Of a stretch of 17,671 bases of DNA, positions 1-17,671 are shown one piece after another; within the stretch, counting starts at the first letter, position 1, and every line of letters begins with the position of its first letter. A model generated the notes under the pieces. That model was given only the letters and a program-made list of their open reading frames with translations. It had not been told where the DNA came from and searched no databases. Both the position numbers and the translations under genes were made by a program. This DNA is from Lentisphaeria bacterium (lineage in GTDB: Bacteria; Verrucomicrobiota; Lentisphaeria; Oligosphaerales; Oligosphaeraceae): positions 1 to 17,671 of the forward strand of contig JAEEXV010000322.1 in the NCBI GenBank assembly GCA_016287975.1. Reading direction: 5' to 3'.

Positions 1-2076
1 GAAGGCGAGCTGGCTGAAGAGTTCGGCGAGGTGGTTTTCAATGGGGGTGCCCGTCATGGCGACGCGGTGTTCGGCGCGGAGGGCGCGGGCGGCCTCGGCG
101 GTGGCGCTTGAAGCGTTCTTGATGGCCTGCGATTCGTCCAGGACGACATAGTCGAAATGGATGTCGGCGAGCCGCGCCGCGTCCTGCCGCAGGGTGCCGT
201 AGGTGGTGAATACGAGGTCGTGGCGGGCGAACCACTCTGGCGCGAAGGTGCGGCCGGGGCCGTGGTGGCAGGCGGTTGTGAGGTGCGGCGCGAAGCGTTG
301 GCATTCGGCCTCCCAGTTGAAGAGCAGCGAACTGGGCATGACGATGAGCGACGGTCGGCCAGGGGCGTCGTGGTGTCGCATTTCAAGGAGCGAGAGGACT
401 TCGATGGTCTTGCCGAGGCCCATGTCGTCGGCGAGGATGCCGCCGAGGCCCGCCTGCTGGAGTCCGCGGAGCCACCCGAGGGCGGTCTTCTGGTAGGGGC
501 GCAGGGCGGCGTGGAACTCGGGCGTGGCGTCCAGCGGGGCGGGGGCGGGGAGTGCGTCGAGGCCACGGAGCAGGGCGGTGTATCTGCCGTCGGCGTCGTG
601 GAGTTGTTCGGCGAGGATGGCCTGGAGGAGGGCGGCCTGCCGCTGGCGGAGGCGCACACGCTGGCTGTCGGATTCGCCGATTTCGACGAGGGCGGTGAAG
701 CGTTCAAGCCATTCCTGGGGGAGGATGCCGTAGGTACCGTCGTCGAGCCGCACGCTCTTCTGGCCTTTTCGGGCGGCCTGGAGAAGCAGCGGCAGTTCGG
801 CCTTGGCGGTGCCGAAGTCGAGGGAGGCGTCGACTTCGAGCCAGTCGATGCCGAAACTGGCGACGGTGAAGTCCTTGGAGACGGGGCGGCGGTAGTTCTT
901 GCCTTCGGCGGTGATTTCCCAGCCTGAGAGGACGAGGGTGCGCACGGCGGCGTCCAGTTGCGAGGGCAGCAGTTTCCAGCCTGGATCCTCGTCCCCCCCG
1001 GTGCGGGTGACGAGGCGGAAGCCGAGGCGGCGCAGCTCCTCGGCGAGGCGCGTTTCGGCGGCGTAGTCGCGGAGGATGACGCCGCCAGGCGTGGAGAGGC
1101 GCTCCTCGTCGCTGTCAGGCGCGCAGGCGGCGCCCGCGTAGTCGAAGGTGAGGTCGCACTGGAGTTGCTCCTGCCCCAGGTGCTTGAAGCGCGCGGCGGC
1201 GATGTAGAGGCGTCCAGTCGGCTCGACGGCGCCGACGGGGCAGCGCATGGTCTCGGGGAGGGCGGTGAGGTCGGCGCCGCCGTCCAGCGTCAGGGTGCGG
1301 ATGGCATTGGAGAGTTCGGCGGCTGGGAAGACGGCGGGAAAAGAGGCCATCCAGGACGCGAGCAGTCCGAAGGCGCGGGAGATGCGGACGGGATACAGGT
1401 GGTCGCCCGCGATGACCCAGCCCGCCTGGCCGAGGGCACGCCAGTCGCGGAGGTCGTAGTCGCGCTCTGGCGCGCCGAGCCAGAGGCGGGGGCGGCCGTC
1501 AGGGAGCGCGAAGAACCACGGCGTGGGGCCAGTGTGGACGGACAGGCGGTGCAGGCGCCATTGCGCCTCGTCCCGCCTGGCGCTCCAGCGCACTTCCGAC
1601 GCGGCGGCGAGGGCTTCCAGGAACTCCTGCTGCTTTGCGACGGGGACGGCGCAGGCGTTGCCGCGCGTGCCTGCCGTGTGCAACAGGTGCGGGTGGAGCA
1701 ACTGCAGCAGGCGCTGGTCGGCGGCGGCGGGGACGGTCGTCTCCGAATCCAGTGTCAATGGCCGCAGCGCCGACTGCCCCTCGGTCGGCCGCCACCAGAT
1801 CTCGACCCGCAGGTCGTCGGCGACGGCGGCAGGTGTGCGCCCCAGTTCCAGGACATAGAGGATTGTGATGCCGCAGCCTGGGACGATCGGCGGCATGAAC
1901 GGCGGCGCCTTCGGCCTGCGCGCCTTGGACGGGACGCCGCGCGCGGCCTTCGCCTGCGCGCGCAGATAGCCGCGCTCGTATTCGACAATATTCCCATCCG
2001 CATCCACCTGCGTGTCGGCATTGCGGCGACGGCGGGGACGGCGCTCTGGCTCATAGATGAGATCGTCGTCTGGCAT
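1..2076 (-). CDS. SNF2-family DEAD/DEAH-box helicase, N-terminal 692 residues (runs off left edge)
   Basis: Reading the minus strand from ATG 2076 gives an open frame with no stop to the window edge. Visible SNF2 motifs in order: an RPYQ motif (about residues 526-529), Walker A GLGKT (553-557) inside DDMGLGKT, the DExx box as DESQ followed by AIKN (647-650), and motif III TGTPIEN (675-681). Lobe 2 (Helicase_C) must lie to the left. The first ~520 residues are a family-variable N-terminal region of the kind found in bacterial SNF2 proteins; its role is unknown. These proteins are ATP-dependent double-stranded DNA translocases that remodel protein-DNA complexes. An in-frame TGA about 20 nt upstream of ATG 2076 rules out a longer start. 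No Shine-Dalgarno sequence is visible; instead a pyrimidine-rich (on this strand) 9-bp repeat array lies 22 nt upstream. It may be co-transcribed with the DUF1846 gene, since I see no promoter in the gap. There is no defence-system neighbour in view. Confidence 0.93.
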   Translation of the reverse strand, partial: MPDDDLIYEPERRPRRRRNADTQVDADGNIVEYERGYLRAQAKAARGVPSKARRPKAPPFMPPIVPGCGITILYVLELGRTPAAVADDLRVEIWWRPTEGQSALRPLTLDSETTVPAAADQRLLQLLHPHLLHTAGTRGNACAVPVAKQQEFLEALAAASEVRWSARRDEAQWRLHRLSVHTGPTPWFFALPDGRPRLWLGAPERDYDLRDWRALGQAGWVIAGDHLYPVRISRAFGLLASWMASFPAVFPAAELSNAIRTLTLDGGADLTALPETMRCPVGAVEPTGRLYIAAARFKHLGQEQLQCDLTFDYAGAACAPDSDEERLSTPGGVILRDYAAETRLAEELRRLGFRLVTRTGGDEDPGWKLLPSQLDAAVRTLVLSGWEITAEGKNYRRPVSKDFTVASFGIDWLEVDASLDFGTAKAELPLLLQAARKGQKSVRLDDGTYGILPQEWLERFTALVEIGESDSQRVRLRQRQAALLQAILAEQLHDADGRYTALLRGLDALPAPAPLDATPEFHAALRPYQKTALGWLRGLQQAGLGGILADDMGLGKTIEVLSLLEMRHHDAPGRPSLIVMPSSLLFNWEAECQRFAPHLTTACHHGPGRTFAPEWFARHDLVFTTYGTLRQDAARLADIHFDYVVLDESQAIKNASSATAEAARALRAEHRVAMTGTPIENHLAELFSQLAF

Positions 2077-2098
2077 GCGGCAATAGGCAGGGAATCAA

Positions 2099-2161
2099 GG
2101 GACCGAAGGGACCGAAGCGACGGAAGCGACCGAAGGGACGGAAGGGACCGAAGGGACGGCA
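2099..2161. repeat. 9-bp tandem repeat array 1 (7 units, G[G/C]GAC[C/G]GAA)
   Basis: Seven consecutive 9-nt units on the plus strand: GGGACCGAA twice, GCGACGGAA, GCGACCGAA, GGGACGGAA, GGGACCGAA and a degenerate GGGACGGCA. Variation is confined to unit positions 2 and 6 in all but the last unit. It fills most of the 142-nt gap between the DUF1846 stop and the helicase start, ending 22 nt before the helicase ATG. In the helicase-sense RNA it would be pyrimidine-rich (UUCGGUCCC type). Related to the arrays at 8485-8574 and 12563-12688. Confidence 0.95.
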
Positions 2162-2218
2162 TAGAAAACCATCCCCCGCCTTTTCCTGGAATCCCGCCTA
2201 TCCTTTGTATCCCTTGGT

Positions 2219-3727
2219 TTACGGGAACAGTTTCCTGGTCGGGGGGAGCGGGTCGTAGGTGTAGGAGATGCCGAGATGTCGGAGGCCGGCCTCGTCGCCG
2301 CGCCCTGGCAGATGGGAGAGGTGCACGTCGCAGTGGTTGAGGCGGGTGAGGGCGTCGAGGGCGCGCTTGGCGTAGAGGTCGCGGGAGGCGGAGGCGACGA
2401 GGATGATGAGCGCCTCGGAGAGGTTGATGCTGGTGCGGCTGCTGGTGCCGAGGCCAGTCTTGAAGGAGGCGACCGATTCGAGGATGTCGGGCAGCAGCAG
2501 ATGCTGGCCGCGCGGGATGCCTGCGAGGTAGGAGGCCGCGTTGAGGATCATGGCGACGGAGGAGTGCATGAGGCTGGAGTTGACGCCTGTCATGATGGTT
2601 CCGTCGTCGAGTTGGATGGCGGCGCCGCAGTAGATCCCGCCGTCGCCTTTTTTCTCGGCCTCGCAGCGCTTGACGGCCTCGCGGGCGGCGGCGACAACGG
2701 GGCGGTCGGTGGTCTTGAGGTTTGCCTTCTGGATGAGTTCGTCGGCGCGTAGGACGGTGGCCTCGCTGGCGCGTCCGAGGTGGTATTCCGCGTCGTACTG
2801 GAAGTATCGGCGGATGATCTCCATTTCGGCGGCCTTGCGGACGGCGGCGTCGTCGACGATTCCTGCGGCGATGCAGTTGACGCCCATGTCGGTGGGTGAC
2901 TGGTAGCCTGCGCTGGAGCCAGAGATCTTGGTGAGCATGGCGCGCAGGAGCGGGAACGCCTGCAGATCGCGGTTGTAGTTGACGGCGGGAATCTGGTAGG
3001 CGTCGAAGTGGAAGTTGTCGATGGCGTTGTTGTCGCGCAGGTCGGCGGTGGCGGATTCGTAGGCGATGTTGACTGGATGGTTCAGGGGGAGGTTCCAGAC
3101 GGGGAAGGTCTCGAACTTGGCGTATCGCGCGGCGCGCCCCTGCTGGTATTCGTGGTACATCTGGTTGAGGCAGGTGGCCATCTTGCCCGAGTTGGGGCCT
3201 GGCCCCGTGACGACGACGAGTTGCTGCGTGACGGGGATGTACGGATTGGCGCCGAAGCCCTCGGGGCTCGCGATGCGGTCGAGCTTGTTGGGGTAGCCGT
3301 CGATGGACTGGTGCAGAAAGACCTTGAGGCCGTGGCGCTCCAGCCGCTCCTTGTAGGAGACGGCGGCGGGCTGGCCGTTGAAGCGCGTGATGACAATCGC
3401 GGTCACCTCGATGCCGTTGGCGCGCAGGTCGTCGATCAGTTTGAGCGCGGCATTGTCGTAGGTGATGCCGAAGTCGGCGCGGATGCGCTTGCGCTCGATG
3501 TCCTCGGCATGGATGCAGATGATGATGTCGGCGGCGGTCGCAAGCTGGCGGAGCAGGCGCAACTTGACGTCGGGGTCGAAGCCAGGGAGGACGCGGGCGG
3601 CATGGAAGTCGCCGATGAGTTTACCGCCGAACTCCAGATAAAGGCGGCCCTCGCCAGAATGGCTGCGGGTTCGGATCGCGGCGGCCTGCGCTTCAAGATA
3701 TTTCTCGTTGCTGAATGCGGTTTCCAT
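2219..3727 (-). CDS. DUF1846 domain-containing protein
   Basis: A 502-residue protein, the usual length for DUF1846. Recognised from family-conserved blocks: YLEFGGKL near residue 30, HAARVLPGF near 43-50, a glycine-rich loop GPGPNSGKMATC at 175-186, the segment KFETFPVWNLPLNHPVN around 204-220, and SPTDMGVN around 277-284. DUF1846 proteins are cytosolic; the function is not established and should not be guessed beyond a possible nucleotide-binding loop. No signal peptide or membrane segment is visible. ATG 3727 is preferred over an in-frame TTG five codons upstream because AGGGA (3734-3738) is well placed for the ATG. The start lies only 16 nt downstream of the rpsU terminator U-tract, so expression probably depends on read-through or on a promoter inside the rpsU 3' end (a GATAAT, 3807-3812, sits at the rpsU stop but lacks a clear -35 box). 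Confidence 0.95.
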   Translation of the reverse strand: METAFSNEKYLEAQAAAIRTRSHSGEGRLYLEFGGKLIGDFHAARVLPGFDPDVKLRLLRQLATAADIIICIHAEDIERKRIRADFGITYDNAALKLIDDLRANGIEVTAIVITRFNGQPAAVSYKERLERHGLKVFLHQSIDGYPNKLDRIASPEGFGANPYIPVTQQLVVVTGPGPNSGKMATCLNQMYHEYQQGRAARYAKFETFPVWNLPLNHPVNIAYESATADLRDNNAIDNFHFDAYQIPAVNYNRDLQAFPLLRAMLTKISGSSAGYQSPTDMGVNCIAAGIVDDAAVRKAAEMEIIRRYFQYDAEYHLGRASEATVLRADELIQKANLKTTDRPVVAAAREAVKRCEAEKKGDGGIYCGAAIQLDDGTIMTGVNSSLMHSSVAMILNAASYLAGIPRGQHLLLPDILESVASFKTGLGTSSRTSINLSEALIILVASASRDLYAKRALDALTRLNHCDVHLSHLPGRGDEAGLRHLGISYTYDPLPPTRKLFP

Positions 3728-3743
3728 TTTGGTTCCCTGCAAG

Positions 3744-3780
3744 AAAAAAGCGAACAGAGGAGAGAATCTTCTGTTCGCTT
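3744..3780 (-). terminator. Intrinsic (Rho-independent) terminator after rpsU
   Basis: An 11-bp perfect stem (3748-3758 pairing with 3770-3780), extendable to about 14 bp with one G-U pair and a 5-nt loop, is followed on the minus strand by six T residues (3749-3744). On the plus strand no comparable T-run follows, so it acts in the minus direction. It begins 33 nt after the rpsU stop and its U-tract ends just before the DUF1846 Shine-Dalgarno sequence. Confidence 0.9.
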
Positions 3781-3812
3781 GTCGATTTGGAAATGCCTTT
3801 GGACGGATTATC

Positions 3813-3977
3813 CTATCGGATCTTGCCCTCGGCGCGGCGACGGGCCTCGCACGGTTTCACGTAGTATTCGCGGCTACGGAGTTCGTCCAGCGTGTCTTCC
3901 TTGTCCATCTTCTTGCGCAGATGACGGAGGGCGCGCTCGATCGTGTCGCCCTTGCGGAGTTTGACTTCTGCTCCCAT
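3813..3977 (-). CDS. rpsU: 30S ribosomal protein bS21
   Basis: A 54-residue basic protein beginning MGAEVKLRKGDTIERALRHL, with the LRKKMDKED segment, the SREYYVKPCEARRR block and a basic C-terminus, all typical of bS21. bS21 sits on the 30S platform near the anti-Shine-Dalgarno end of 16S rRNA and helps initiation. The start is fixed by family length and by a nearly full-length Shine-Dalgarno sequence, AAGGGGGTGA, 7 nt upstream. The gene has its own putative promoter (4066-4093), an 80-nt leader with a small GNRA-type hairpin, and a strong terminator, so it looks like an independent transcription unit between the GH-like gene and DUF1846. Confidence 0.96.
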   Translation of the reverse strand: MGAEVKLRKGDTIERALRHLRKKMDKEDTLDELRSREYYVKPCEARRRAEGKIR

Positions 3978-3984
3978 GTGGTAA

Positions 3985-3994
3985 TCACCCCCTT
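3985..3994 (-). promoter_or_regulatory. Extended Shine-Dalgarno sequence of rpsU
   Basis: AAGGGGGTGA matches nine of ten bases of the ideal anti-16S complement AAGGAGGTGA, 7 nt before the ATG. It is one of the two strongest ribosome-binding sites in the window (the other precedes the DUF6259 gene). Upstream CCC (in TTCCCGCCAAGGGGG) and ATCAC could pair with its GGG and GTGAT, so it might be switchable; that is inference. Confidence 0.75.
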
Positions 3995-4047: not shown

Positions 4048-4065
4048 CGAAATGTCAACTTGGTT

Positions 4066-4117: not shown

Positions 4118-7100
4118 CTATGGCAGGGAGAATTCGATGGTGTATTCCTGGCTGGTGCGGGCGGTCAGGGCGACGGGCTGGAAGAGCGTCTCGAAGGTGG
4201 GCATTTTGACGCCGCCGTCCCAGAAGACGAACTGCGAGCAGCGTTCGGCGGGGGAGACGGCGGCGCTCACGGCGAGGGCGCCCTTGCGCCAGGCCATGGA
4301 GGCGGGCTTCGCCTGGAGCATCTTCTGGTAGTCGCGGACGAGCCGCTTGCCGCCGAGGATGCGTTCGGGGAAGGCGGGCATGGAGTGGAAGCGGAAGGTG
4401 ATGTCGCGGCTTTCGCCGTCGGGGTTGAAGACCTTTGTCGTGATGGAGACCTTGGCGGGCGTGAAGCGGTAGGTCTTGGTGAGTTCCAGCCCCGCGTGCA
4501 CGATGCTGTCCTTCTTGGTGAGTCTGCGGAAGAGGCGCACTTCGAGGGCGCCGTCCTTGGCGGCGACGGCCTGCACGGCGTAGGGGCGGCAGGAGAGGAA
4601 GCCGCCGCGGCCCCAGAAGGCGTCGCTGCCAATGGGGCTGGCGTGGTTGACGACGATGCCGTCTGCGGTGACCGCGAACTGCTCGCCGCGGATGAGCCAG
4701 GAGACGATGGTGCCGCCGTTTGCGAAGTCCAGGGTCAGGCGGTAGTTCGGCGCGGTGACTTCGGCCTTGCCGCCAGGCTGCGGCTGGAACTGGAGGCCGC
4801 CTGCCTTGGCGGGCTTGAGGCCAGTGTAGTCGGGCGGGATTTCGTCGGCGTTGGCCTGTCGGCGGACGGCCTCGGTGCGCGCGGCGGCCTTGGCGATGGC
4901 GGGGCGGCGTCGGGCGAGGAGTGCTTCCAGGTCGGCGGCGGTGTAGACGGCGCCCTGCGGGCGTCCCTCGTCGAGGGTGTAGAGATTCCAGCGGAGGGCG
5001 CCGACCTGGAGGAGGATTCCGTCGGCGAGTTCCTTTCCAGTGGGGGCGAAGGTCTCGCCGCTGTCGACGGTCCGCAGAGTGTAGGTGGCGTCTGGTTTGA
5101 GGCCTGGCAGTTTGAGGCGGAAGAAGCACTCTCCGCCGTCCCAGAAGTTACCGACGCCCAAGAGGATGCGATGGCCGTTTTTCCAGGCGGCGCACTGGAG
5201 CATCTCCAAGTCCTTGAGGGCGGGGTGGCGGACGTCGGCGTTGCCGTGGAAACTGCTTTTGGGCAGGTCGCTCACGGGGATGGCGACGGGCGTGGGGAGG
5301 CGGGTGCCGCCGAAGCGGATGTCCTCGGTCGCGGCGATGATGCGGTTGGTGCGCGCCATTGCGGCGAAGCCACGGTTGTCGGCGCCGTTGGGGAAGAAGT
5401 AGAGCATGGAGCCCTCCCAGCCGTTCAGGAAATAGGAGAGGGTTTCGAAGGCCATCGCCTCTGGAGTGGTGATCCAGGTCTCGACCTGGTGGCACTGCGG
5501 GAAGGCGATGAGTTTCGGGCGCCTGGCGGGATCGGGGATGCGCGCGGCGAGGAACTCCTTGACCTCGCGGCCCGACTGGTATGCCTTCAGCTGCTGGCCG
5601 ATGACAGGTTCGTAGGCGTTGAACATGTTGTAGAAGAGATACGGTCCCCACGAGTTGATCCACGGAATCTGGTCCATGTAGTCGGGGGCGGCGTACTGGT
5701 AGTAGAGTTGCCAGGTCGCCTCGCGGAGGCTTTCGCTGGTGACGGCGGGCAGGAAGTGCCCGCCGCCCGCGGCGGCGGCGCGTTCGGTGTTGACGACGAC
5801 GCGGGCGTTCTGGCGCGAGCGGAACCGTATCCACTGGGGCCGCCATTTGCCGAGGATCTCCTTGGGCCAGGCGGCGCGCACCTGGTCGGCGGGCAGTTTG
5901 GAATCGCGGATGAAGGCCTCGCGGCAGCGGTCGCACCAGCAGCCCTGGAAGTTGTCCTGGGGCTCCCAGTTGGAGATGAGGAAGGCGTGGCGCTCGTCCC
6001 GCATGCGCCGCGTCAGGATGGAGGCGACGTTCTCCTGGAAATAGGGTTCGTTGGCGGCGGCGACCTCGGGGCAGAGGAAGCCCTTGTTGTAGCCCTTGCC
6101 CGCCATGAAGTGGCTGCCGTCCAGCAGGCGGTATTTGACCTCTTCGGGCTTGTCGGCGGCGCCCATGTCGTAGCCGTTGCTGGGGCCTGGCTGGGTCGGC
6201 CAGATGGCGGTCTGAAAGCCGTTGCGCTGATAGTTTTCACGGGCGGCCTGGTTGTAGCCTGATCCGCCCAGGGCGCCCTTGGCGGCGTTGAAGCCCATGG
6301 CGGCGGCGGAGTCGGTCCAGACGCCGACTGCGTCGCCAGGCAGGATGCAGTTGCTGCCGAAGAAGAATCCAGTGAGGAAGCGCTTGGGCTGGGGGGAGTT
6401 CGGGGCGGGGTCGGTGTAGAGCAGGAAGGTGGTCTCCTCGCCATAACGGCCGTTGTTTTGGAAGCGGCAGCGGACGGGGATGGGGGCGTGTCCAGCGGGC
6501 AGGTCGGACTGCATCAGGATGTTGCCCAGGGAGACCTCGGAGGTGCCGCGGCCGTAGCGCGAGATTTGCAGGGCGCGGGGCAGCACGGGGATGATCCAGC
6601 GGTCGCCTTCCTGTCGGGGCGGTTCCAGGTAGAGGGGGCAGGCGCCCAGGACGCGCACGCCCTTCGGGAGCGTCAGTTCGAGTCGGGGCCTGACGCCCTT
6701 TTCCTGGCTGGGGTTGCTGACCCAGAATCCCAGGAAGCAGGCGCGCCCCTGGGGCATTCGGAAGCCGCCTGGGATGAAGCCCCAGGGCATGGCGGTGGCC
6801 TTGAGGCCGCTGGTGGCGGCGGCCTTGCGGAGGGCGAAATTGCGGGTCTCGATGCGGCCCATGCCATAGAGGTGCAGGGAGAAGCGCACGATGGTGGTGG
6901 TCTCGGGCACCTGGAAGACGATCTGTTCCTTGCGGAACTCGGGGGAGAGGGCGAGAAGGGTCCTGGTCTGCGGCCCCACCTTGACATCCATCTTGGACAT
7001 GGATTGGATGAATAGGTAGGCGGCATTGCTGCCTGGCTTCTTGCTCAGGCGGCTGCGGATCTCGAACTCCAGGACGTAGGTGCCAGGTTCAGATACCTTG

Positions 7101-7462
7101 ATGTTGCGATAGGCGCCGCTGTGGCAGGCGGGCTTGCCCTTGCCGTCCTGCTGCGGGGCGATGCCCTCTTCCAGCGCCTCCATGAGGAAATTGCCATTGT
7201 CGACGGTGCAATGGAACCACTGGTTCAGGTCGGGATCCTTTGGGGTGGGGCCGCGTCGCGGGCCGAGGTTGAAGCCGTAGCGCCAGCCAGAGAAGTCCTT
7301 CCAGTCGTTGAGTTTCCCATTGGCGGGCGGGAGGATGTCCTCGCCCTGCGCTTGCAGGGCGGGGATGCGTGCGCGGGAGAGGTCGACGGAGACGCCGCCC
7401 TGGTCGAAGGCGGCGTGGAGCATCGTGGCCAGCAGGGCGAGGCAGAGGACGAGGCGCTTCAT
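4118..7462 (-). CDS. Large secreted glycoside-hydrolase-like protein (clan GH-A / GH42-like core, flanking beta-sandwiches)
   Basis: 1114 residues with a Sec signal peptide (MKRLVLCLALLATMLHA, cleavage near 17/18), so it is exported. Residues ~20-350 look like beta-rich, carbohydrate-binding-type modules. Residues ~360-730 look like a TIM barrel with aromatic, substrate-facing stretches; SNWEPQDN (497-504) is followed by a Cys cluster C508-x-C510-xx-C513-xxx-F that resembles the Cys motif next to the acid/base Glu of GH42-type beta-galactosidases, making E500 a candidate catalytic residue. Residues ~875-1114 form another beta-sandwich of galactose-mutarotase type. I cannot assign a GH family or substrate. 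ATG 7462 is supported by AGGAG (7469-7473) six nt upstream. It is the last gene of the symporter unit, 62 nt after the upstream gene with no terminator between. A long plus-strand open frame across it (4052-6262) is a G+C artefact. Confidence 0.8.
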   Translation of the reverse strand: MKRLVLCLALLATMLHAAFDQGGVSVDLSRARIPALQAQGEDILPPANGKLNDWKDFSGWRYGFNLGPRRGPTPKDPDLNQWFHCTVDNGNFLMEALEEGIAPQQDGKGKPACHSGAYRNIKVSEPGTYVLEFEIRSRLSKKPGSNAAYLFIQSMSKMDVKVGPQTRTLLALSPEFRKEQIVFQVPETTTIVRFSLHLYGMGRIETRNFALRKAAATSGLKATAMPWGFIPGGFRMPQGRACFLGFWVSNPSQEKGVRPRLELTLPKGVRVLGACPLYLEPPRQEGDRWIIPVLPRALQISRYGRGTSEVSLGNILMQSDLPAGHAPIPVRCRFQNNGRYGEETTFLLYTDPAPNSPQPKRFLTGFFFGSNCILPGDAVGVWTDSAAAMGFNAAKGALGGSGYNQAARENYQRNGFQTAIWPTQPGPSNGYDMGAADKPEEVKYRLLDGSHFMAGKGYNKGFLCPEVAAANEPYFQENVASILTRRMRDERHAFLISNWEPQDNFQGCWCDRCREAFIRDSKLPADQVRAAWPKEILGKWRPQWIRFRSRQNARVVVNTERAAAAGGGHFLPAVTSESLREATWQLYYQYAAPDYMDQIPWINSWGPYLFYNMFNAYEPVIGQQLKAYQSGREVKEFLAARIPDPARRPKLIAFPQCHQVETWITTPEAMAFETLSYFLNGWEGSMLYFFPNGADNRGFAAMARTNRIIAATEDIRFGGTRLPTPVAIPVSDLPKSSFHGNADVRHPALKDLEMLQCAAWKNGHRILLGVGNFWDGGECFFRLKLPGLKPDATYTLRTVDSGETFAPTGKELADGILLQVGALRWNLYTLDEGRPQGAVYTAADLEALLARRRPAIAKAAARTEAVRRQANADEIPPDYTGLKPAKAGGLQFQPQPGGKAEVTAPNYRLTLDFANGGTIVSWLIRGEQFAVTADGIVVNHASPIGSDAFWGRGGFLSCRPYAVQAVAAKDGALEVRLFRRLTKKDSIVHAGLELTKTYRFTPAKVSITTKVFNPDGESRDITFRFHSMPAFPERILGGKRLVRDYQKMLQAKPASMAWRKGALAVSAAVSPAERCSQFVFWDGGVKMPTFETLFQPVALTARTSQEYTIEFSLP

Positions 7463-8460: not shown

Positions 8461-8484
8461 AGGAAACGAGAGGAAGGAGGCGAA

Positions 8485-8612: not shown

Positions 8613-11075
8613 CTACTTGTCTTTGGGCTTTTCGCCTTCGACCTGGGCGAACTGGGCCTTGTCGGCGAGGGAGACATTTCCGTCGACCTGCCCGTTGTCC
8701 AGCGGGTTGACCTTGCGCTTCTTGAGGTCGATGAAGAGCTGGCGCAGGTCGCGGACGCCGCCGATGCCGAACCAGAACATGGTGATGAAGGCGCCGACGC
8801 AGGGGACGATGAGCAGGTCGATGAGGTAGTAGTTGCCCCACCACTTGAGCGGCCACGGGGAGATCTTGTTCCAGATGGCGGTGGTGACGAAGAGTCCAAG
8901 GAAGGAGTAGACGAAGGAGTAGCAGAACATGCCCCAGGCGATGCACTTGTCGCCGCGGGTGTATTCAGGCGTGATGCCGATGAACTTCTTCCAGAGGTTG
9001 TGGAAGGAGAACTTCTCGGGCTGCTTGGTCTCGCCGTCCACGGCGTACTTGCCGCGGTGCAGCATGCGTTCCATGTTGAAGGGCTCCTTGCAGGTCAGTT
9101 TGGAGACGACGATGTAGAGCGCCGTGCAGATGAGCATGACCATGAAGTAGAACTCGTAGGAGTTGATCGGGCACTTGGTCGGGTTCATCTCCCACTTGAT
9201 GATGGGGTTGAAGGGGCGCGAGGCGCGGACCAGGAAGCGGCCGACCGCCTCGTCCCACTTGTGGCGGGCGAGCCACGGGAAGACGACGTCGGCCCAGCGG
9301 CGGTTCAGGAAGGCGGTGAAGCCAGAGAGGAGCATGCCCGCGATGAGGCTGGTGAAGGCGCCTGCGGTGGTGCCGAAGCGGCTGTAGAGGCCGAAGATCA
9401 TGACGGGGCCGCAGCCGCCCATCCAGAAGCTGCAGACCATGCTGACGTAGAGGCTGATGTAGTCCATCTGCGCCATGAAGAAGGAGCCGCAGAAGAAGAA
9501 GACGCCGATGGAGATGGCGACGATGCGGATCATCCACATGTGCTGCTTCGGGGTGAAGCCGCCCTTCTTGAAGGGGAGGACGCAGTCCTGCGCGATGGTC
9601 AGGGTCGCGGAGTAGATGCGGGTGTCGTCGGTGGAGAGCATGGCGAGTACCATGAGCAGGGCGAAGAGACCGAGGAGGCCGCCGGGGAGCATCTTGCGCA
9701 TGGAGGTCGGAAGCATCAACTGGTGGTAGAGGGCGCGGAACTGCTGGAATTTGGCGTTGGCGTCGCCGTCGCTGTCCTTGAGCTTGGCCTGCAGGTCGGA
9801 GACGAGCTTGTCGTCCTTGGCGGCCTTTGCCGCCTCGATCTGCTGGGTCAGCGGGATGTGCTGCGGGTTCATGCCCTCGAGCATGGTCTGGTGGACGGTG
9901 TCGAGATAGGGCGTGTCGAGGTTCTTCTTCTGGGAGAGGCCGTTGGGGTTGTCCCAGCCAGTGATGCGGCCGTTCGCGTTGCGGATGGCGGTCGGGGTGG
10001 AGGGGCGGTGATCGTTGGCGGGCAGTGCCTCCACCTTGGCGATGACCTGCTGGCGCAGTTCAGGTGATTCCTTCTCCAGGACCTCGTTGGCGACGCGCGT
10101 GGAGATGCGGGTGCGGACGATTTTGGCGTCGCCGCGGAAGTCGTAGTTGTTGAGCAGGGTGATGATGGAGACGCCGATCAGGACGTAGAAGGTGGCGCCG
10201 AGGAGGTTGCGCCAGGAGCCCAGGATGTGCGCCATCTTCTGCTCGTGGGCGGTGCGTGCGGCGGAGCTGGTGCCCGCGCCGATCCAGGAGGCGCGGTGCA
10301 GGAAACTGGTGACGATGGGCAGCATGACCAGCGAGAATAGGTTGAAGTCCCGCAGGTTCTTGATGTCGGTGGGGTTGAGGAAGCTCTCGCCTGAGACGCG
10401 GTCCATCATGGTGGGGACGATTTCCCTGGACCAGGAGAACTTGAAGAGGATGAAGAGGATGAAGAGGGTGAGGAGGGGGTAGCAGCAGAGGCCCTGGATG
10501 GCGTCGGTGATGACGAGGGAGAGGGTGCCGCCGAAGCAGATGAGGGAGATGGCCATGATGAGGATGATCACCAGGAGGATCATATAGGTCTGGATGACGA
10601 TGGGGCCGATATGGATTTTGGAGGGCAGGTCGAGGAAATAGATGAAGAAGCGGGCTCCGATGGCGGGCATGATCATGTTGGCGAGCATCTCGGCGATGGA
10701 GCGCAGGCCCGAGGCGAAGATGCGCAGGGGGCGGTTGTAGCGCATTTCGAGGAACTGCCCGAGGGAGAGGGCGCGGGTCTCGCGGAAGCGGTAGGTGCAG
10801 TAGCCGGTGAGGCTCAAGATGATCGTCAGCGGCGCGATGAGCCGCGACCAGAAGGTGACCGCGAAGCCGGTCTTGTAGTGGGTCTCGACATACGATGCCA
10901 GGGTGATGATGGCGAGCGCGTTGGCGACGTCCCCGATGCAGATGACATATCGTCCGCAGATTCGCCCCGCCGCCAGGAAGTCCGCCACCCCTCTCACATA
11001 TCGTCGTGAATAGAACCCCATATAGAGGACGAAGGCAAGCGGGAGAAGGACGATGAGGTAGTCGTACCAGTTCAT
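8613..11075 (-). CDS. Sodium:solute symporter family protein, 820 residues with large insertion and C-terminal extension
   Basis: Inner-membrane cation/solute symporter of the SSS (SLC5-like) family. TM1 is at residues 3-23, followed by the family-typical YVRGVADFLAAGR and many hydrophobic helices. LAMLSTDDTRIYSATL (477-492) matches the conserved S/T-rich sodium-site helix. Usual length is 450-600; here a hydrophilic, charged insertion of about 150 residues (311-462) interrupts the transporter, and further helices follow to about 770, with a hydrophilic tail rich in K and D. The substrate is unknown; sugar or sugar acid is inferred from the neighbours. ATG 11075 starts at the family N-terminus MNWYDYLIVLLP; the open frame upstream crosses the promoter and is not coding. 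No Shine-Dalgarno sequence is visible. First gene of the unit symporter - epimerase-like - GH-like, driven by the promoter at 11155-11183. Confidence 0.92.
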   Translation of the reverse strand: MNWYDYLIVLLPLAFVLYMGFYSRRYVRGVADFLAAGRICGRYVICIGDVANALAIITLASYVETHYKTGFAVTFWSRLIAPLTIILSLTGYCTYRFRETRALSLGQFLEMRYNRPLRIFASGLRSIAEMLANMIMPAIGARFFIYFLDLPSKIHIGPIVIQTYMILLVIILIMAISLICFGGTLSLVITDAIQGLCCYPLLTLFILFILFKFSWSREIVPTMMDRVSGESFLNPTDIKNLRDFNLFSLVMLPIVTSFLHRASWIGAGTSSAARTAHEQKMAHILGSWRNLLGATFYVLIGVSIITLLNNYDFRGDAKIVRTRISTRVANEVLEKESPELRQQVIAKVEALPANDHRPSTPTAIRNANGRITGWDNPNGLSQKKNLDTPYLDTVHQTMLEGMNPQHIPLTQQIEAAKAAKDDKLVSDLQAKLKDSDGDANAKFQQFRALYHQLMLPTSMRKMLPGGLLGLFALLMVLAMLSTDDTRIYSATLTIAQDCVLPFKKGGFTPKQHMWMIRIVAISIGVFFFCGSFFMAQMDYISLYVSMVCSFWMGGCGPVMIFGLYSRFGTTAGAFTSLIAGMLLSGFTAFLNRRWADVVFPWLARHKWDEAVGRFLVRASRPFNPIIKWEMNPTKCPINSYEFYFMVMLICTALYIVVSKLTCKEPFNMERMLHRGKYAVDGETKQPEKFSFHNLWKKFIGITPEYTRGDKCIAWGMFCYSFVYSFLGLFVTTAIWNKISPWPLKWWGNYYLIDLLIVPCVGAFITMFWFGIGGVRDLRQLFIDLKKRKVNPLDNGQVDGNVSLADKAQFAQVEGEKPKDK

Positions 11076-11370: not shown

Positions 11371-12411
11371 CTATTCGGGCATCTGGAGGAGGACGCCGAG
11401 GGCCTGTCCTGGGGTGGTCAGGAGCATTTCGGCGGCGTCGGCGACCTTCTGGATGGGGAGGCGGTGGGTGACAAGGGCGTCGACGTTGAGTTGCCCGCGC
11501 GCGATGCGCAGGGCGATTTCACGGGCGTTGCGCTGCGAGGTGAACTGGACGAAGGTCTGGGGATAGTCCTTGCCATATTCCCAGTCGTGGTCGTGGTAGC
11601 CCGCGCCAGTGCGGGAGGAGACGAGGATGTCGAGGTTGCCAGTGGAGGCGCCGCCGTCGACGGGGACGCGGCAGCCGCCGACGAGGACGGCGCGGCCCAT
11701 GATGTGGCCGTCGGCCGAGACCTTCATGCATTTCTTGATGTCCATGAAGGACTTCTCGGCGTTGCCGCCGAAGGCGAAGAGGGCGAAGTCGAGGCCGTAG
11801 GGCTTGGAGAACTGCTGGCTGGCCTCGACCGCGTCGGCGTTCATGAAGTCGACGGTGTTGATGGCGCATTTGGCGGCGATCTCACGGCGGAGCGGGAGGG
11901 ATTCCCAGCCCAGGACATGCGCGCCTGAGAGGTGGTAGAGCTGCCCCGCGAGGTTGCCGACGATGCCCATGCCGAGGACGGCGCCGTATTCGCCGAGTTT
12001 GGGCGCGGTGCGCCGCACGGCCTGCAGGGAGGTCGCGGCCAGCGAGAAGAAGGTGGCCTGCTCGAAGGTGACTTCGTCGGGCAGGGGGACGACCAGGTTG
12101 ACGGGGACGCAGGCGTACGAGGCGTGCGGGGCGCCGCCGCCCATCGCGCCGACGCGCATGCCGACCTTGAGGTCCTTGACGTCGCCGCAGGTGGCGACGA
12201 TGGTGCCCGCGGCGGAGTAGCCGAAATGGGCGGGCGCGAGGCTGGCGTCGGGTTTGGCGCGGCGGTTGCGCGGGAGATTCATTTCCGTTCCAGGGCTGAT
12301 GAGGGTGCAGGCGACTTTGACCAGCACTTCCCCTGGTTTGAGTTCGGGCACCTCTTCCTCGATTGCATCGACACGGCCGTCGCCGTAGACCACTGCTGCC
12401 AGGCGTTTCAT
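11371..12411 (-). CDS. Zinc-type alcohol dehydrogenase-like (MDR superfamily) oxidoreductase
   Basis: 346 residues, cytosolic. It has a GroES-like N-terminal half and a Rossmann domain with GMGIVG (147-152). The ISPGTE block (38-43) and HFGYSAAG (62-69) place it in the MDR subgroup in which the usual catalytic-zinc GHE motif is replaced by GYS; the structural-zinc Cys tetrad of classical alcohol dehydrogenases is not visible either. It probably oxidises or reduces a sugar-derived alcohol with NAD(P), substrate unknown. ATG 12411 is chosen because the family N-terminus KRLAAVVYGDG follows it and the promoter lies upstream; the open frame continuing to 12951 crosses the promoter and repeat array 3. 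The ribosome-binding site is weak (GGAG about 13 nt upstream). Divergent from the DUF6259 gene, with which it shares a 346-nt regulatory region. Confidence 0.9.
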   Translation of the reverse strand: MKRLAAVVYGDGRVDAIEEEVPELKPGEVLVKVACTLISPGTEMNLPRNRRAKPDASLAPAHFGYSAAGTIVATCGDVKDLKVGMRVGAMGGGAPHASYACVPVNLVVPLPDEVTFEQATFFSLAATSLQAVRRTAPKLGEYGAVLGMGIVGNLAGQLYHLSGAHVLGWESLPLRREIAAKCAINTVDFMNADAVEASQQFSKPYGLDFALFAFGGNAEKSFMDIKKCMKVSADGHIMGRAVLVGGCRVPVDGGASTGNLDILVSSRTGAGYHDHDWEYGKDYPQTFVQFTSQRNAREIALRIARGQLNVDALVTHRLPIQKVADAAEMLLTTPGQALGVLLQMPE

Positions 12412-12472
12412 GTTGCGATTCAGACTCCGCTGTTTTGTTTGCTGTTTGAGCCCCCCTTCCGTCGCTTGGCAT

Positions 12473-12688: not shown

Positions 12689-12757
12689 GGGGTGTTTCTT
12701 GAATGACGGTGTAGATTATCGGGGAAACGCATATCGTTGTCAAAAGGAGGAACGCAC

Positions 12758-14797
12758 ATGGATTTTACCGCAATTGGAACGGGGCTCGGCGTTGTGCTGG
12801 CGGACAATGGCGCCATTGCGTCGATTCGGCGCCATGGGCGGGAGCTGGGGGCTCCTGCGGCTGAGGCGTTCACGATGGAACTGCTGGATCGGAACGGGGA
12901 GGCGCTGCGTCTCAGAAGCCGCGAGTTCCGCCGCGAAGGCGGCGTCTTCACGGCTCATCCCGCGATGCCCTCGCTGAAGGTTGCGATCGCCGTGCGCGCG
13001 GATCGGGACTTCGTGCGCTTCCGCCCCCAGGTCACGGGCGTGCCAGGCGACTGGGTGGTGTCGTGGATCGACGCGCCCCAGGTGTGCTATCCGCTGCGTC
13101 AGGGCATCGACCTGGTGCTGCCGCTGCACGACGGCGTGATCATCTCGGATCCGACCTTGCGGAAGGCCCCCTACCATCCCATCGGCTTTGCGAAGCGCGG
13201 ACAGCCCTACGGGACCTTCTACCCTGGACGCGCGCAACTGCAGTGCATGGCCTTCTGCCGCGGAGGGGACGGCGTCTATTTCGCCGCGCAGGATCCCCAT
13301 TGCGCGACCAAGGCGGTCGAATACGAGGTCTGCGGCGAGGCCGTGCGGCTGAGCCTGCAGACCTTCACGGGCTGCGACTTCGGCCAGGACTACCGCCCCG
13401 ACTGGGACTACGTCCTCGCGGGCATCGACGGCGACTGGCAGTCCGCCGCCGAACTCTACCGCGACTGGGTGGAGGCGCAGAACTGGCTTCCGCCGATGGC
13501 GGACTATCCCGAATGGATGCGGCAGTCCCCCGTCGTCGCGATCTATCCAGTGCGCGGGCACGGGCGCGACGTGGGGGAGATGGAGCCCAACTGCTACTTC
13601 CTCTACGTGAACGCGATGCCGCACATTCGGCGGTTCCAAAAGGAGTTCGGCGCGCCCATTCTGGCGCTGCTGATGCACTGGGAGGGGACCGCGCCGTGGG
13701 CCCCGCCGTTCGTCTGGCCGCCTTTCGGGGGCGAGGCGGCGCTGGCGAAATTCCGCGATGCGCTGCATGACAGCGGCAATCTGCTGGGGCTGTACTGCTC
13801 GGGGACGGCGTGGACATGCAGCAGTTCGATTCTGCCTGGATACGCGCCAGGCTGCACGCCAGAGCAGGAGCGGATGATGCTGCGCGGCCCCAAGGGGGAA
13901 CTGGAGGCGTCGGTCTGCAATGGCCTCCAGAGCCAGCGGCTGGGCTATGAACTGTGCCTGGCCGAGGCGCCCGCACGGAAGATCGTCCTGGACGAGATCC
14001 TGAAGATGGCGGACTTCGGGGTGGACTACGCGCAGTTCTTCGACCAGAACCACGGCGGCTGTGTCCACAACTGCTTCGCGCGGGACCACCACCATCCGCC
14101 CGTGCCAGGCGGCTGGCAGGCGGCGATGCAGCACGGTGTGATGGCGGAGGCGGCGCGGGAAATCGGGGCGCGCGGGCGAAGCATGCTGCTGGGCTGCGAG
14201 AGCGCGGCGGCGGATGTCTACGCGCAGTTCCTGTCGCTCAACGACGCGCGCGCGTCCTTTGTGCGATACTACGGGCGGCCGATTCCCATGCAGCAGTATG
14301 TGCTGCACGGGCGCAGCGCCAACTTCGCGGGGAACCAGGGCGGGACGCGCTGGATCTGCGACTTCAGCCGCTCCCCCTACAACCTGAACCGTCGCCTGGC
14401 CTACGCCTTCAGCGCGGGCGACCTCCTGAGCGTGACGCTCAAGGAGGACGGCCACGCGCATTGGTGCTGGAGTTACGAGTGGGACCGCCCCGCGCCGCCG
14501 CAGCCAATGTTCTGGACGCTGATGCGCAACCTGAACCAGGTCCGCCGCCAGTATCCAGAATACCTTCTCCTGGGGCGGATGCAGAGGGACGCCGCCGCCG
14601 TGACGGGCGAGACGTGCGTCGAATATGACTGCGAGGGACGCAAGCGTGAGTTCCCCGCGTTCTGCCATTCCACGTGGCAGGCCCCCGATGGCCGCCGCGC
14701 GCTGATCGCGGCGAACTACCTGGACCGCCCGCAGCGGCTCGCCATCGACGGAAAACCGACGACCGTCGCCCCGTGCAGCGCCATTGTGGTTGGTTGA
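12758..14797 (+). CDS. DUF6259 domain-containing protein (putative glycosidase-like TIM barrel)
   Basis: 679 residues, no signal peptide, so probably cytosolic. The N-terminal ~240 residues are beta-rich (sandwich-like), followed by a TIM-barrel-like region (~255-600) with VDYAQFFDQNHGG (423-434), MLLGCESAAADVY (476-488) and many Trp/Tyr/His residues, then a short beta-rich C-terminus. The pattern fits DUF6259 proteins common in Lentisphaerota and Planctomycetota, thought to be glycoside-hydrolase-like; D424 or D429 are candidate active-site acids by analogy with other barrels, which is inference. ATG 12758 is fixed by AAAGGAGG (12743-12750) seven nt upstream; an in-frame TTG at 12737 would swallow that site. 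It is the only confident plus-strand gene, divergent from the dehydrogenase across repeat array 3. A minus-strand open frame over the same span is a shadow. Confidence 0.85.
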   Translation: MDFTAIGTGLGVVLADNGAIASIRRHGRELGAPAAEAFTMELLDRNGEALRLRSREFRREGGVFTAHPAMPSLKVAIAVRADRDFVRFRPQVTGVPGDWVVSWIDAPQVCYPLRQGIDLVLPLHDGVIISDPTLRKAPYHPIGFAKRGQPYGTFYPGRAQLQCMAFCRGGDGVYFAAQDPHCATKAVEYEVCGEAVRLSLQTFTGCDFGQDYRPDWDYVLAGIDGDWQSAAELYRDWVEAQNWLPPMADYPEWMRQSPVVAIYPVRGHGRDVGEMEPNCYFLYVNAMPHIRRFQKEFGAPILALLMHWEGTAPWAPPFVWPPFGGEAALAKFRDALHDSGNLLGLYCSGTAWTCSSSILPGYAPGCTPEQERMMLRGPKGELEASVCNGLQSQRLGYELCLAEAPARKIVLDEILKMADFGVDYAQFFDQNHGGCVHNCFARDHHHPPVPGGWQAAMQHGVMAEAAREIGARGRSMLLGCESAAADVYAQFLSLNDARASFVRYYGRPIPMQQYVLHGRSANFAGNQGGTRWICDFSRSPYNLNRRLAYAFSAGDLLSVTLKEDGHAHWCWSYEWDRPAPPQPMFWTLMRNLNQVRRQYPEYLLLGRMQRDAAAVTGETCVEYDCEGRKREFPAFCHSTWQAPDGRRALIAANYLDRPQRLAIDGKPTTVAPCSAIVVG

Positions 14798-14837: not shown

Positions 14838-15292
14838 TTACGGCAAGATGATGAACAGGGACTCCGTTGTGTCGCCGAATCCGTCCGCCAGGCGCTTGAC
14901 GAGCGGCGCCAAATCCTTGTCCGAATCCTCAAGTTCCCCGTCGGCGGCGTAAACCGCATACGACGTGCCGTGGTCGTCGCACGCGCCCCCTATCCGCGTC
15001 GACTGCTCCATGCTTCCCGCCTTGGGTCAGGAGGAACATGGCCATCCGGATGGCCGCGCCGATCTCCTCGTCGCACTCCTTCTGCGACGCCTCGCCTGAA
15101 AGAATGCGCGCATACGGAAGGCGGAACGATTTCTCAAGCGCCGGTTCGCGCCACTCGAACTTGAACATGCGGCTCTGGATGCCGTGTCCGCCGACAAAGC
15201 GCGTCAGCCCCTCGTCCGATTCAAGTTCGGCGGAAGCGGGGCTTCTACTCCTCGACCGCTTCCGCGTGTTTTGCCGCAATGTCGTTTTCCAT
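14838..15292 (-). pseudogene. Small unknown gene broken by two frameshifts
   Basis: Coding-like text continues across three frames. ATG 15292, preceded by GGAG, gives MENDIAAKHAEAVEE and hits TAG at 15245-15247. The next frame continues with SAELESDEGLTRFVGGHGIQ ... EEIGAAIRMAMFLLTQGG to about 15010. A third frame continues with TRIGGACDDHGTSYAVYAAD ... LVKRLADGFGDTTESLFIILP to TAA 14838. The spliced product would be about 150 residues. I do not recognise the family. It lies 23 nt after the broken gene at 15316-15772, as in an operon, and is convergent with DUF6259. Three CCGG sites fall in or next to it, unlike the rest of the window. Either genuine decay or sequencing error in a low-quality patch. 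Confidence 0.6.
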
Positions 15293-15315
15293 GCGTGTCT
15301 CCGTTCCCCGTGCCG

Positions 15316-15772
15316 TCATACCGGCGGTTCAAACATCTTGTGGAAGAACTCGCGCTTGAAGAACGACGGGCACTTCCTCATGTTGCAGTCGTTGACGCAC
15401 TTGATCTTGGTGTCGGGCTTGATCTTGGTGCCGTCGACCTTTGTGATGGTCACGGTCGGTTTGACTGCTGTCATCGCCTTGAGCTTGCTGGCGTCCAGCC
15501 AGTCATGCTTGCCGTACACCTTGTGGTTCGCCCGAAGCATCTCGGCGTAGGCGATGGCCACGTCGATGCGCGCTTGTCGCCTGAAAGTCTTCAGGGGATA
15601 CCCTGGACTTGATGGTGTCGAGATATGCCCTTGCTGAATCATAGTTGTCACGTTTAATATGTGAGTTGCAAGCGTTGTGAAAATCCTCTTGGGGGATTAT
15701 GGCATGATATAAAGTGTTCCGTTTGGAATGCAACTCGGAAAGATTGTTTTTTTGGGGGGGAGGGGTAATCAT
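15316..15772 (-). pseudogene. Small unknown gene with one frameshift
   Basis: One frame reads NNLSELHSKRNTLYHAIIPQ ... DYDSARAYLDTIKS-type sequence up to SPEDFQA near 15590. The text then continues in another frame as ARIDVAIAYAEMLRANHKVY ... CVNDCNMRKCPSFFKREFF to TGA 15316. The best ATG is 15772, but the frame from it runs through a T7G7 homopolymer (15747-15760), so the start is uncertain. Base composition is clearly more A+T-rich (about 15610-15750) than the neighbouring genes. The product is unknown; the helical, charged N-part and Cys-rich tail match nothing I recognise. Confidence 0.5.
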
Positions 15773-16124
15773 TTCGCGGTGCCTCCTGTTGCCCAGTCTC
15801 GCCTGAAGCCGTGTAAGGAACACGGAGGCGGCTGGAGAGAAGAACTGCCCTTCTTCCAGACGATGTCCAAGGGGGACTCCAGTATCGAGCCAAATGGGCG
15901 GAAGGCCAGCCCAGACTTCACGCCAGTCGGAACGAAACGATCCAGTGTCACTTCACAGCCGACGCCTTCGCTCGCCTGCGGCTTGCGCGGCGTGGCTGGC
16001 TGAAGAAGCCAGGGGAGGTCGTCGCCTGCTGCAACGACGGGCTACGCCCCGTTTGTTTCAAACTGGAGGGTTCCTTGGACGAGAGGAATCATGGCCTGAA
16101 GGCCGAAGAACTATGCGTGCCACG
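15773..16124. other. Non-coding or decayed stretch, no confident gene
   Basis: This 350-nt interval between the broken genes and the aldo/keto reductase stop has short open frames on both strands (for example minus 15769-15951, 60 codons), none with an RBS or family resemblance. It contains small inverted repeats: CTGGCT/AGCCAG around a 5-nt loop near 15999-16015, and GGCC/GGCC near 16094-16105. No transposase or terminal inverted repeat is visible. It may be remnant DNA; I cannot say of what. Confidence 0.4.
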
Positions 16125-17375
16125 TTATCCGTTGAGTTCGGCGACGATTTCCCGCAGATGGCGTGGAATTTCGATTTTCTGCGGGCATTTGGAGAGGCAT
16201 GCCTTGCAATCCACGCATGCGTCCGCACGGCCCTTTGCAGGCAAAGCCGCATATTCCGTGGTGAATCTGCTGCGGTCGCCGCCTTCGCGGTAGCGGTTGT
16301 AGGCGCGGAAGACGTCTGGAATCATGACGCCTGCGGGGCATGGCATGCAATAGCGGCAGCCAGTGCATTTCGACGAGCCAGTGCGCTTCCAGTTCGCGGC
16401 CTCGGCGGCCTGTCGGAGCACGCTGCGCTCCTCGTCCGTCAGCGGACGGAAATCCGTGAACGTGCGGATGTTGTCCTCCAGCTGTTCCATGGTGGACATG
16501 CCCGATAGCACGACCTGCACGTTTGGCAACGAGCCGATGAAGCGGAACATCCAGGAGGCAGTCGAGGCCTCGGGGGCGGCCTTCCGCAGGATGGCCTCCG
16601 CGTCACGGGAAATGCTTGCCAGGGTGCCTCCGCCAAGAGGTCCCATGACGGACACGGGGATGCCGCGTCTTGTCAGCGTCTCATAGAGGGTGTGTGAGGC
16701 GGAATCCCAGTCTCGGAAGTTCAGCTGAACCTGTGCAAGGTCCCATTCGGCGGAGGAGGCGATTCGGTCCAGGCACTCAGGCCCGCCATGATAGGAGAAT
16801 CCGACTCGCCGCACAAGCCCCTGGCGCTGTTTTTCCTTGATGAACTCGTATGCGCCGAGCTTCTGCGCATGCTCCCAGTTGCCGTCGTTCAGCCAGTGGA
16901 TGAAGTAGAAGTCGAAATAGCCTGCGCGGGTGCGGCGGAGCTGTTCGTCGAATGTTTCCTCCATCTCCCTGCGGCTGTTGAGTTCCCAGGCGGGCAGCTT
17001 GTCCGTCAGGAGGTAGGATTCGCGCGGATGCGAGGCGAGGGCCTGGCCGATGAACTTCTCGCTTTCGCCGCCGTGGTACATGTAGGCGGTGTCGAAGTAG
17101 TTCAGGCCCGCCGCAAGGGCGCGTTCAACCATCGCCGACGCCTTCTTGCGGTCGATTCCACTGCCGCCTTCGGGGAGGCGCATCATGCCGAAGCCAAGCA
17201 GCGGCGTCGAGAAGGGACCGCCCTTGTGCGGACGGCGCGTGATCGGCCCGATGGCGTTTTGGGTTGACTTTTCACTGCCGTTCTCCGACGCCTGGCCACA
17301 GGAGATGCCAACGGAGCCAAGAGCCCCCAGCGCCGCGAAGGCAGTCACGCCCTTGATGAATTCACGTCTGTCCAT
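16125..17375 (-). CDS. Tat-exported aldo/keto reductase with C-terminal 2x[4Fe-4S] ferredoxin domain
   Basis: 416 residues. The N-terminus MDRREFIKG followed by a hydrophobic stretch is a twin-arginine signal; VGISC (22-26) resembles a lipobox, so it may be a Tat-exported lipoprotein. Residues ~55-320 form an AKR barrel with the tetrad D95 (FDTAYMY), Y100, K126 (TDK) and H160 (FIHW). The tail carries two cluster motifs, C337-xx-C340-xx-C343-xx-C346-P and C387-xx-C390-xx-C393-xxx-C397-P. Fe-S insertion in the cytoplasm fits Tat export of a folded protein. It is likely a redox enzyme that draws electrons through the clusters; substrate unknown. ATG 17375 is supported by AAGGAG (17384-17389) eight nt upstream. 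A 44-codon ORF ends one base upstream, allowing translational coupling. Confidence 0.93.
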   Translation of the reverse strand: MDRREFIKGVTAFAALGALGSVGISCGQASENGSEKSTQNAIGPITRRPHKGGPFSTPLLGFGMMRLPEGGSGIDRKKASAMVERALAAGLNYFDTAYMYHGGESEKFIGQALASHPRESYLLTDKLPAWELNSRREMEETFDEQLRRTRAGYFDFYFIHWLNDGNWEHAQKLGAYEFIKEKQRQGLVRRVGFSYHGGPECLDRIASSAEWDLAQVQLNFRDWDSASHTLYETLTRRGIPVSVMGPLGGGTLASISRDAEAILRKAAPEASTASWMFRFIGSLPNVQVVLSGMSTMEQLEDNIRTFTDFRPLTDEERSVLRQAAEAANWKRTGSSKCTGCRYCMPCPAGVMIPDVFRAYNRYREGGDRSRFTTEYAALPAKGRADACVDCKACLSKCPQKIEIPRHLREIVAELNG

Positions 17376-17376
17376 G

Positions 17377-17511
17377 TCAAATGCTCCTTCCAAGTTGATA
17401 GGCTTGTTCGGGATACTTTGTACGATTGACTGCGCCGACAGGCCAGACATCTGACGCGCTGATTTCCGCTGCGGCAATCGCCATGTTCCGAATGAAATCA
17501 CGTAGGTTCAT
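17377..17511 (-). pseudogene. 44-codon micro-ORF resembling a damaged Tat signal peptide
   Basis: ATG 17511 opens MNLRDFIRNMAIAAAEISAS, which reads like a canonical Tat leader (NRRDFIKNMAxAAAGxSA) in which RR became LR and a Gly became Glu, then 24 unrelated residues to TGA 17377-17379, one base before the reductase ATG. Its ATG overlaps the TGA of the preceding fragment (ATGA). Most likely a remnant of another Tat-exported protein; alternatively a short coupled leader peptide. Confidence 0.4.
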
Positions 17512-17671
17512 AATTCCAGTCCGTCTTCACTTCGTCTTAACAAGTTTCGCCTGGCCGTGTCAATCAGGCGGCATCCCGCCTTTAGGGCCTCGTAAACGGC
17601 TGTCTCCGCCGCTACGCCGCGAAGCGTCCAGGTGCCCAGGCCAAGCCTTGGCATCTGGAAGCCCGTGTTGA
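17508..17671 (-). pseudogene. N-terminal fragment of a second aldo/keto reductase (truncated, also cut by right edge)
   Basis: The minus strand from the window edge reads MPRLGLGTWTLRGVAAETAV ... AGCRLIDTA, the classic AKR N-terminus (GLGTW, cofactor-side RLIDTA). After LIDTA the expected catalytic Tyr segment (Y-x-NE) is absent; the frame continues with 14 unrelated residues to TGA 17508-17510. The breakpoint is near 17552. The visible part has 53 codons; the 5' end is outside the window. So the gene has lost its C-terminal three quarters. Confidence 0.75.

Follow-up and report, generated by a model that had tools for sequence, protein, structure and literature searches.

Near-elimination of CCGG in the DNA of an apparently Victivallales-like bacterium, with long selection by a Type II restriction-modification system as the probable cause

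The window, that is, the whole 17,671-nt stretch of DNA that we have analyzed, has a genuine and very strong bias in its composition, the near-elimination of the tetramer CCGG. The word occurred 9 times against 135.5 copies expected from a maximal-order Markov model (observed/expected ratio, o/e, 0.066, Poisson 95% limits 0.030-0.126; z -20.7). The lineage has probably been under long selection against CCGG, exerted by a CCGG-cutting Type II restriction-modification system that is perhaps lost by now. Such a system would have been long resident in the lineage, CCGG sites left occasionally unmethylated would have been cut, and site-destroying mutations would have been favored, whatever the codon phase and the synonymous change involved, until few sites were left. 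The resulting avoidance signature could outlast the enzyme.

CCGG content of the window

The nine copies were found at positions 254, 998, 2286, 9682, 10804, 10867, 15046, 15141 and 15321, exactly where an earlier note on this DNA had placed them, and there was no tenth. The note's estimates of about 65% G+C and some 200 expected copies were also close to the values obtained (64.8%, and 195 under independent bases). It had further proposed a Markov-corrected count of all 256 tetramers, which, when run on the window, left CCGG far from a ratio of 1 and with the lowest z of all. By ratio, CTAG was lower still (0 vs 23 expected, Markov); most bacteria under-represent CTAG (PMC4687349). The palindromes GGCC, GCGC and CGCG were abundant, as had been remarked, with 142, 259 and 227 copies, respectively (o/e 0.665, 0.90 and 0.78), while GTAC (0.41) and GATC (0.64) were other low palindromes. 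CCGG was scarce after each of the four 5' bases (o/e of ACCGG 0.13, CCCGG 0.05, GCCGG 0.08 and TCCGG 0.03), and with every flanking context depleted the avoided word is the 4-mer CCGG itself.

The window contains the following features, given with their Pfam matches.

1..2094, minus strand: SNF2-family helicase, truncated at the window end (PF00176, 8.5e-45; PF08455, 3.7e-8); open frame extending to 2094, with no start codon assigned; CCGG at 254 and 998
2219..3742, minus strand: DUF1846 protein (PF08903, 4.1e-148), used for placement of the organism; one CCGG (2286)
4118..7462, minus strand: 1114-aa protein with no Pfam match; zero CCGG over 3.3 kb
7525..8480, minus strand: portion, used in the codon tests, of the ORF 7525-8946 (weak match to PF20583, DUF6786, 2.8e-4, below the cut-off); zero CCGG
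8613..11072, minus strand: sodium:solute symporter family protein (PF00474, 7.1e-12), portion of the ORF 8613-11261; three CCGG (9682, 10804 and 10867)
11371..12420, minus strand: alcohol dehydrogenase GroES-like domain protein (PF08240, 5.3e-6), portion of the ORF 11371-12951; zero CCGG
12737..14797, plus strand: DUF6259 protein (PF19773, 3.5e-18); zero CCGG
14929..15952, minus strand: less-depleted stretch of open frames without Pfam match; 3 CCGG vs 5.8 expected
16125..17501, minus strand: aldo/keto reductase with ferredoxin domain (PF00248, 3.2e-42); zero CCGG

When seven of the window genes were shuffled synonymously (500 shuffles), 99.2 CCGG were expected (sd 6.0, minimum 79) and 4 were observed. 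The earlier note had described Pro-Gly pairs as written CCA-GG or CCT-GG throughout. In eight gene portions the proline codon of these pairs was CCA in 14 cases, CCT in 10 and never CCG, which bears the description out except for two pairs with CCC.

Among the scanned ORFs of the window, Pfam searches matched no restriction or methyltransferase gene, and a PF09561 endonuclease beside a C5-methyltransferase was likewise absent. Neither the Rfam scan nor the tRNA scan of this DNA gave a match, and viral contigs searched with one window protein gave none either. The less-depleted stretch, a 1-kb interval picked post hoc, holds three of the nine sites (o/e 0.52), and the remaining window has an o/e of 0.046. 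A piece of this stretch (15316-15696) showed 35% identity across 85 residues with a gene that the comparison genome G037 (contig L090, 3307-3927) has next to an EcoRII-type cassette. This resemblance suggests that the stretch may be foreign, and it is possibly either foreign or decaying. The window also has three minisatellites with a 9-base unit (which can also be read as 18 or 36), each of them intergenic (2097-2159, 8481-8575 and 12559-12691) and with units that include AAGGGACCG, GAAGCGACG and CTGGGACAA.

That the depletion could be an artefact of counting, composition or assembly has to be considered for a single 17.7-kb contig. We regard this as extremely unlikely, because the ratio and z given above were obtained after Markov correction, the genes are open and synonymously recoded, and the same pattern was present in other assemblies.

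Selection or deamination

The loss of CCGG could also have come from mutation alone, if the inner C were methylated by a solitary or restriction-linked C5-methyltransferase and then deaminated, giving CTGG or CCAG. The earlier note preferred this explanation over restriction avoidance. It is favored by the known creation of C-to-T hot spots through 5mC deamination (PMC12907096), by C5-methyltransferase domains in 28 of the 47 genomes of the order that we have compared, and by CTGG/CCAG being above expectation in the window (o/e 1.28). The last value agrees with the note's remark that these words are common. However, the median was 1.14 over 48 sets (the window and 47 genomes), several relatives with normal CCGG reached 1.29-1.33, and the excess of CTGG/CCAG was uncorrelated with CCGG loss over these sets (Spearman -0.05, p 0.73), so that the matched excess looked for was not obtained.

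We have then compared the three codon phases of CCGG, written here as xCC-GG, CCG-G and C-CGG with the hyphen at the codon boundary. In the window, four-fold sites before GG had C in 6/95 cases, compared with 301/390 before GA, GC or GT. Proline codons followed by G never had G as third base (0/131 vs 89/174 before other bases), and arginine was never written CGG after a C-ending codon (0/184 vs 39/178 otherwise). The Fisher p values for the three phases were 3.7e-39, 3.1e-28 and 8.8e-14, respectively. Pooled tests of the window with the genomes G034, G035 and G036, set against eight control genomes, gave 15/703 vs 1255/2822 for xCC-GG (controls 573/1016 vs 1652/3811), 11/838 vs 475/1266 for CCG-G (controls 501/1209 vs 679/1570) and 2/880 vs 190/1446 for C-CGG (controls 329/1399 vs 569/2106, slightly low, p 0.022). 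Thus, the three genomes were emptied in all phases like the window, and the eight controls were not.

The bases that took the place of the missing ones were examined as well. At four-fold sites before GG the replacements were T 27, A 30 and G 32, with a baseline of 15, 19 and 55, and hence T was not favored over A (27:30 vs 15:19, OR 1.14, p 0.83). Nor was A favored over T in proline codons before G (27:21 vs a baseline of 7:4, OR 0.73, p 0.74). The pooled odds ratios were 1.15 for T:A and 0.40 for A:T, the A:T ratio in proline codons being below 1 also in the controls (0.60). Arginine avoided the C-CGG phase via CGC, CGT, CGA and AGG, with AGG raised after C (8 vs 1 in the window; 129/880 vs 102/1446 pooled; 76/1399 vs 74/2106 in controls).

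Deamination in the C-CGG phase would yield Trp or Gln only, and yet this phase, which offers no synonymous deamination products, was emptied equally. This favors selection against the word CCGG. Moreover, a Vsr match accompanied at least 10 of 13 PF09561 loci among the matches listed; Vsr repairs T:G mismatches of the deaminated 5mC type. Since all phases were emptied and the replacements had no transition bias, we consider methylation followed by deamination a very unlikely cause. The codon-phase and replacement tests favor the restriction avoidance that the earlier note had placed second.

Placement of the organism and CCGG in its relatives

The window apparently comes from a Victivallales-like bacterium, judging from its DUF1846 protein. 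This protein was at most 73% identical to its homologues in the comparison genomes. Its nearest named sources were Victivallales and Lentisphaeria MAGs, several of them from ruminant stomachs. A protein search also gave close relatives, the best being 99% identical. In a one-gene DUF1846 tree of 31 sequences the window grouped with G043, G005 and G001-G004 (seven members, support 100/98), and the depleted pair G035/G036 formed a separate branch (100/100). G034 has only a fragment of the gene and was not placed, although stretches of its DNA were 84-96% identical to G036.

CCGG was sampled in 3-52 kb per genome for 46 of the 47 order genomes. G027, with masked DNA only, was left out, and the 47th genome (G006) came from outside the order search. 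Three of the 46 sampled Victivallales genomes were strongly depleted, namely G036 (o/e 0.01, 2/157 observed/expected), G035 (0.07, 15/204) and G034 (0.14, 6/44). Seven more were moderately depleted (0.37-0.58), which brings the order genomes with an o/e of 0.58 or less to 10/46, and the other 36, many of similar G+C, were at 0.69 or above. Adding contigs L204 and L206 of G036, with its two methyltransferase islands excluded, gave 3/282; the two islands together had 58 CCGG vs 116 expected. If the one-gene tree holds, near-elimination of CCGG would have arisen at least twice.

The pooled CCGG counts excluded the methyltransferase-carrying contigs L107-L109, L112 and L156, the short loci L019-L058 and the masked contigs L061, L063 and L141 (in the phylum sample also L180 and L182). 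Contigs with methyltransferase matches were kept for G008, G010, G016, G019, G035 and G037 (L113, L115, L120, L123, L110, L111 and L153). Genes outside the window were predicted with a simple script, without an annotation pipeline.

Two further observations were made in these genomes. GATC was strongly low in the non-island samples of G033-G036 (0.12-0.36), which suggests a second restriction history. In both G036 and G035, a family of dispersed repeats of about 200 bases (L156, 1293-1493) was numerous, with copies of roughly 70-88% identity among the matches listed.

Restriction systems of the relatives and the origin of the avoidance

The HpaII endonuclease family PF09561 was matched in 2 of the 47 order genomes, the depleted G034 and G038 (o/e 1.08). 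In G034 the gene row comprises a C5-methyltransferase, the HpaII endonuclease (PF09561, 9.1e-91), a RadC-like gene and Vsr, and the cassette contig is itself depleted (3 CCGG vs 36). The target of HpaII is CCGG, and its neighborhood with this endonuclease suggests that the G034 methyltransferase targets CCGG too. Methyltransferases 53-63% identical to it were present at PF09561 loci of at least seven other genomes among the matches listed. Compared with the known HpaII system (PF09561 with a C5-methyltransferase and often Vsr), the depleted relative thus has the same cassette, whereas it was not found in the window and the 11 other carriers are weakly or not depleted.

PF09561 was not matched in the two relatives with the strongest depletion, G036 and G035, or in G043 and G005, the window's nearest relatives (genome completeness not given). 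The two segments directly adjoining the cassette in G034 recur at the G036 locus C92 (96% and 84% identity), where they enclose an open frame of 684 codons that encodes a Schlafen group 3 helicase domain (6e-72). The frame is followed by a vsr stub, the last 31 codons of the gene, which was identical to G034 vsr at 30/31 positions, 84% identical to the Vsr of G037 and 64% to that of G036's other island. A vsr-bearing system was thus replaced at C92. The lost system would best be read as HpaII-type, though this is one reading among others, and vsr also occurs in the G036 island C32, together with another system. The flanks lying farther out from the G034 cassette adjoin each other in G036 about 3 kb upstream of the bordering segments, a displacement which indicates that the region was also rearranged. 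G035 has a 31-codon C5-methyltransferase start, followed by stops, that is 76% identical to that of G034, with EcoRII-type ones nearly as close; the matching place in G036 is a shorter interval without this piece.

The locus has the features of a defence hotspot, seen at L204 13166-16458 (G036:C92) and L205 10361-13203 (G037:C59). It holds the HpaII cassette in G034, the Schlafen-type helicase in G036 and a different open frame of 642 aa in G037, with vsr (or what is left of it) and a NUDIX-like gene as neighbors.

Several other candidates were not adopted. The G036 islands C44 (a methyltransferase and a Type II endonuclease model) and C32 lie in less-depleted DNA, with 5 CCGG vs 16 and 53 vs 100, respectively. 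The C5-methyltransferases of G037 and G039 have EcoRII-type endonucleases as neighbors and that of G042 lies beside a homologue of such endonucleases, so that none is CCGG-specific by its neighbor. The CCGG o/e was 0.54 in G037 and 0.42 in G039, and 0.97 in G047, which also bears a homologue. The N4/N6 methyltransferase family PF01555 was matched in 41/47 order genomes, none of the matches being in G036, and was uninformative. So was a search for the MspI family, matched in 0/47 order genomes, since its controls had no match either. As a separate observation, island C32 (L108, 3581-9632) encodes a C5-methyltransferase, a GHKL ATPase, an Mrr-helicase, a 193-aa protein and Vsr, and has zero CCGG at 3260-8600 (7.4 expected), with many in the surrounding DNA.

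In the phylum, PF09561 was matched in 11 of the 387 genomes drawn. The o/e of CCGG was 0.73-1.20 in 11 carriers (10 sampled phylum genomes and G038) and 0.64-1.15 in the 8 readable of 10 genomes without a PF09561 match (medians 0.85 vs 1.12, p 0.052). One carrier, G227, is doubtful, with a weak 33-bit match and an EcoRII-like neighboring methyltransferase. The carrier ratios show that the presence of HpaII is not a sufficient cause. They agree with the account in PMC4687349, in which avoidance depends on the residence time of the Type II system and follows long residence, and in which an avoided site is often the relic of a system since lost.

An HpaII-type system, known from relatives and not found among the scanned window ORFs, would be the best candidate agent, and by analogy with these relatives we infer that a Type II system of this kind was once present in the window's own lineage. 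A driver distinct from Type II restriction of the chromosome (phage or plasmid DNA that arrives already purged of CCGG, a nuclease of another kind, or CCGG being costly for structure or regulation) would fit the lack of a PF09561 match in the two most depleted genomes and in the seven moderately depleted ones. We judge it improbable, given that the depletion spans long ordinary genes at synonymous sites and that a ratio of at least 0.69 in most order genomes argues against a general physical cost. A more specific scenario is rather unlikely but has some plausibility. It holds that the near-elimination, arisen at least twice in Victivallales, is a long-lived fossil after an HpaII-type system was swapped out at the defence hotspot, or else that an unrecognised CCGG-targeting agent outside PF09561 maintains it groupwide.

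Returning to long selection by a Type II system, the phenomenon is already known, and the window is most likely a strong example of restriction-site avoidance. As in the description by Rusinov et al. 2015 (PMC4687349), the word is a strongly under-represented 4-bp palindrome, and the avoidance there is common to relatives with or without the system, as traces of lost systems. The differences are that the cut-off in that work was 0.78 (Kr statistic, whole genomes), against 0.066 here and 0.01 in G036, and that the agent for the window is drawn from relatives, with no system identified in its own genome. Endonucleases of the PD...K...D/E CCGG family (Cfr10I, Bse634I, NgoMIV, SgrAI, BsaWI, AgeI and Kpn2I, with EcoRII and others) share a CCGG/CCNGG core; the seven members with uninterrupted CCGG require flanking bases (PMC6344858), whereas the window is depleted in all flanks. 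Among the best matches of a literature search there was no report of such avoidance in this uncultured group.

With the codon-phase test, selection can be told apart from deamination, and the HpaII carriers lacking depletion indicate that presence of the system predicts avoidance weakly. G034 has the cassette, G036 has a replaced cassette and a vsr stub, and from this pair one could measure the time for which avoidance persists once the enzyme is gone.
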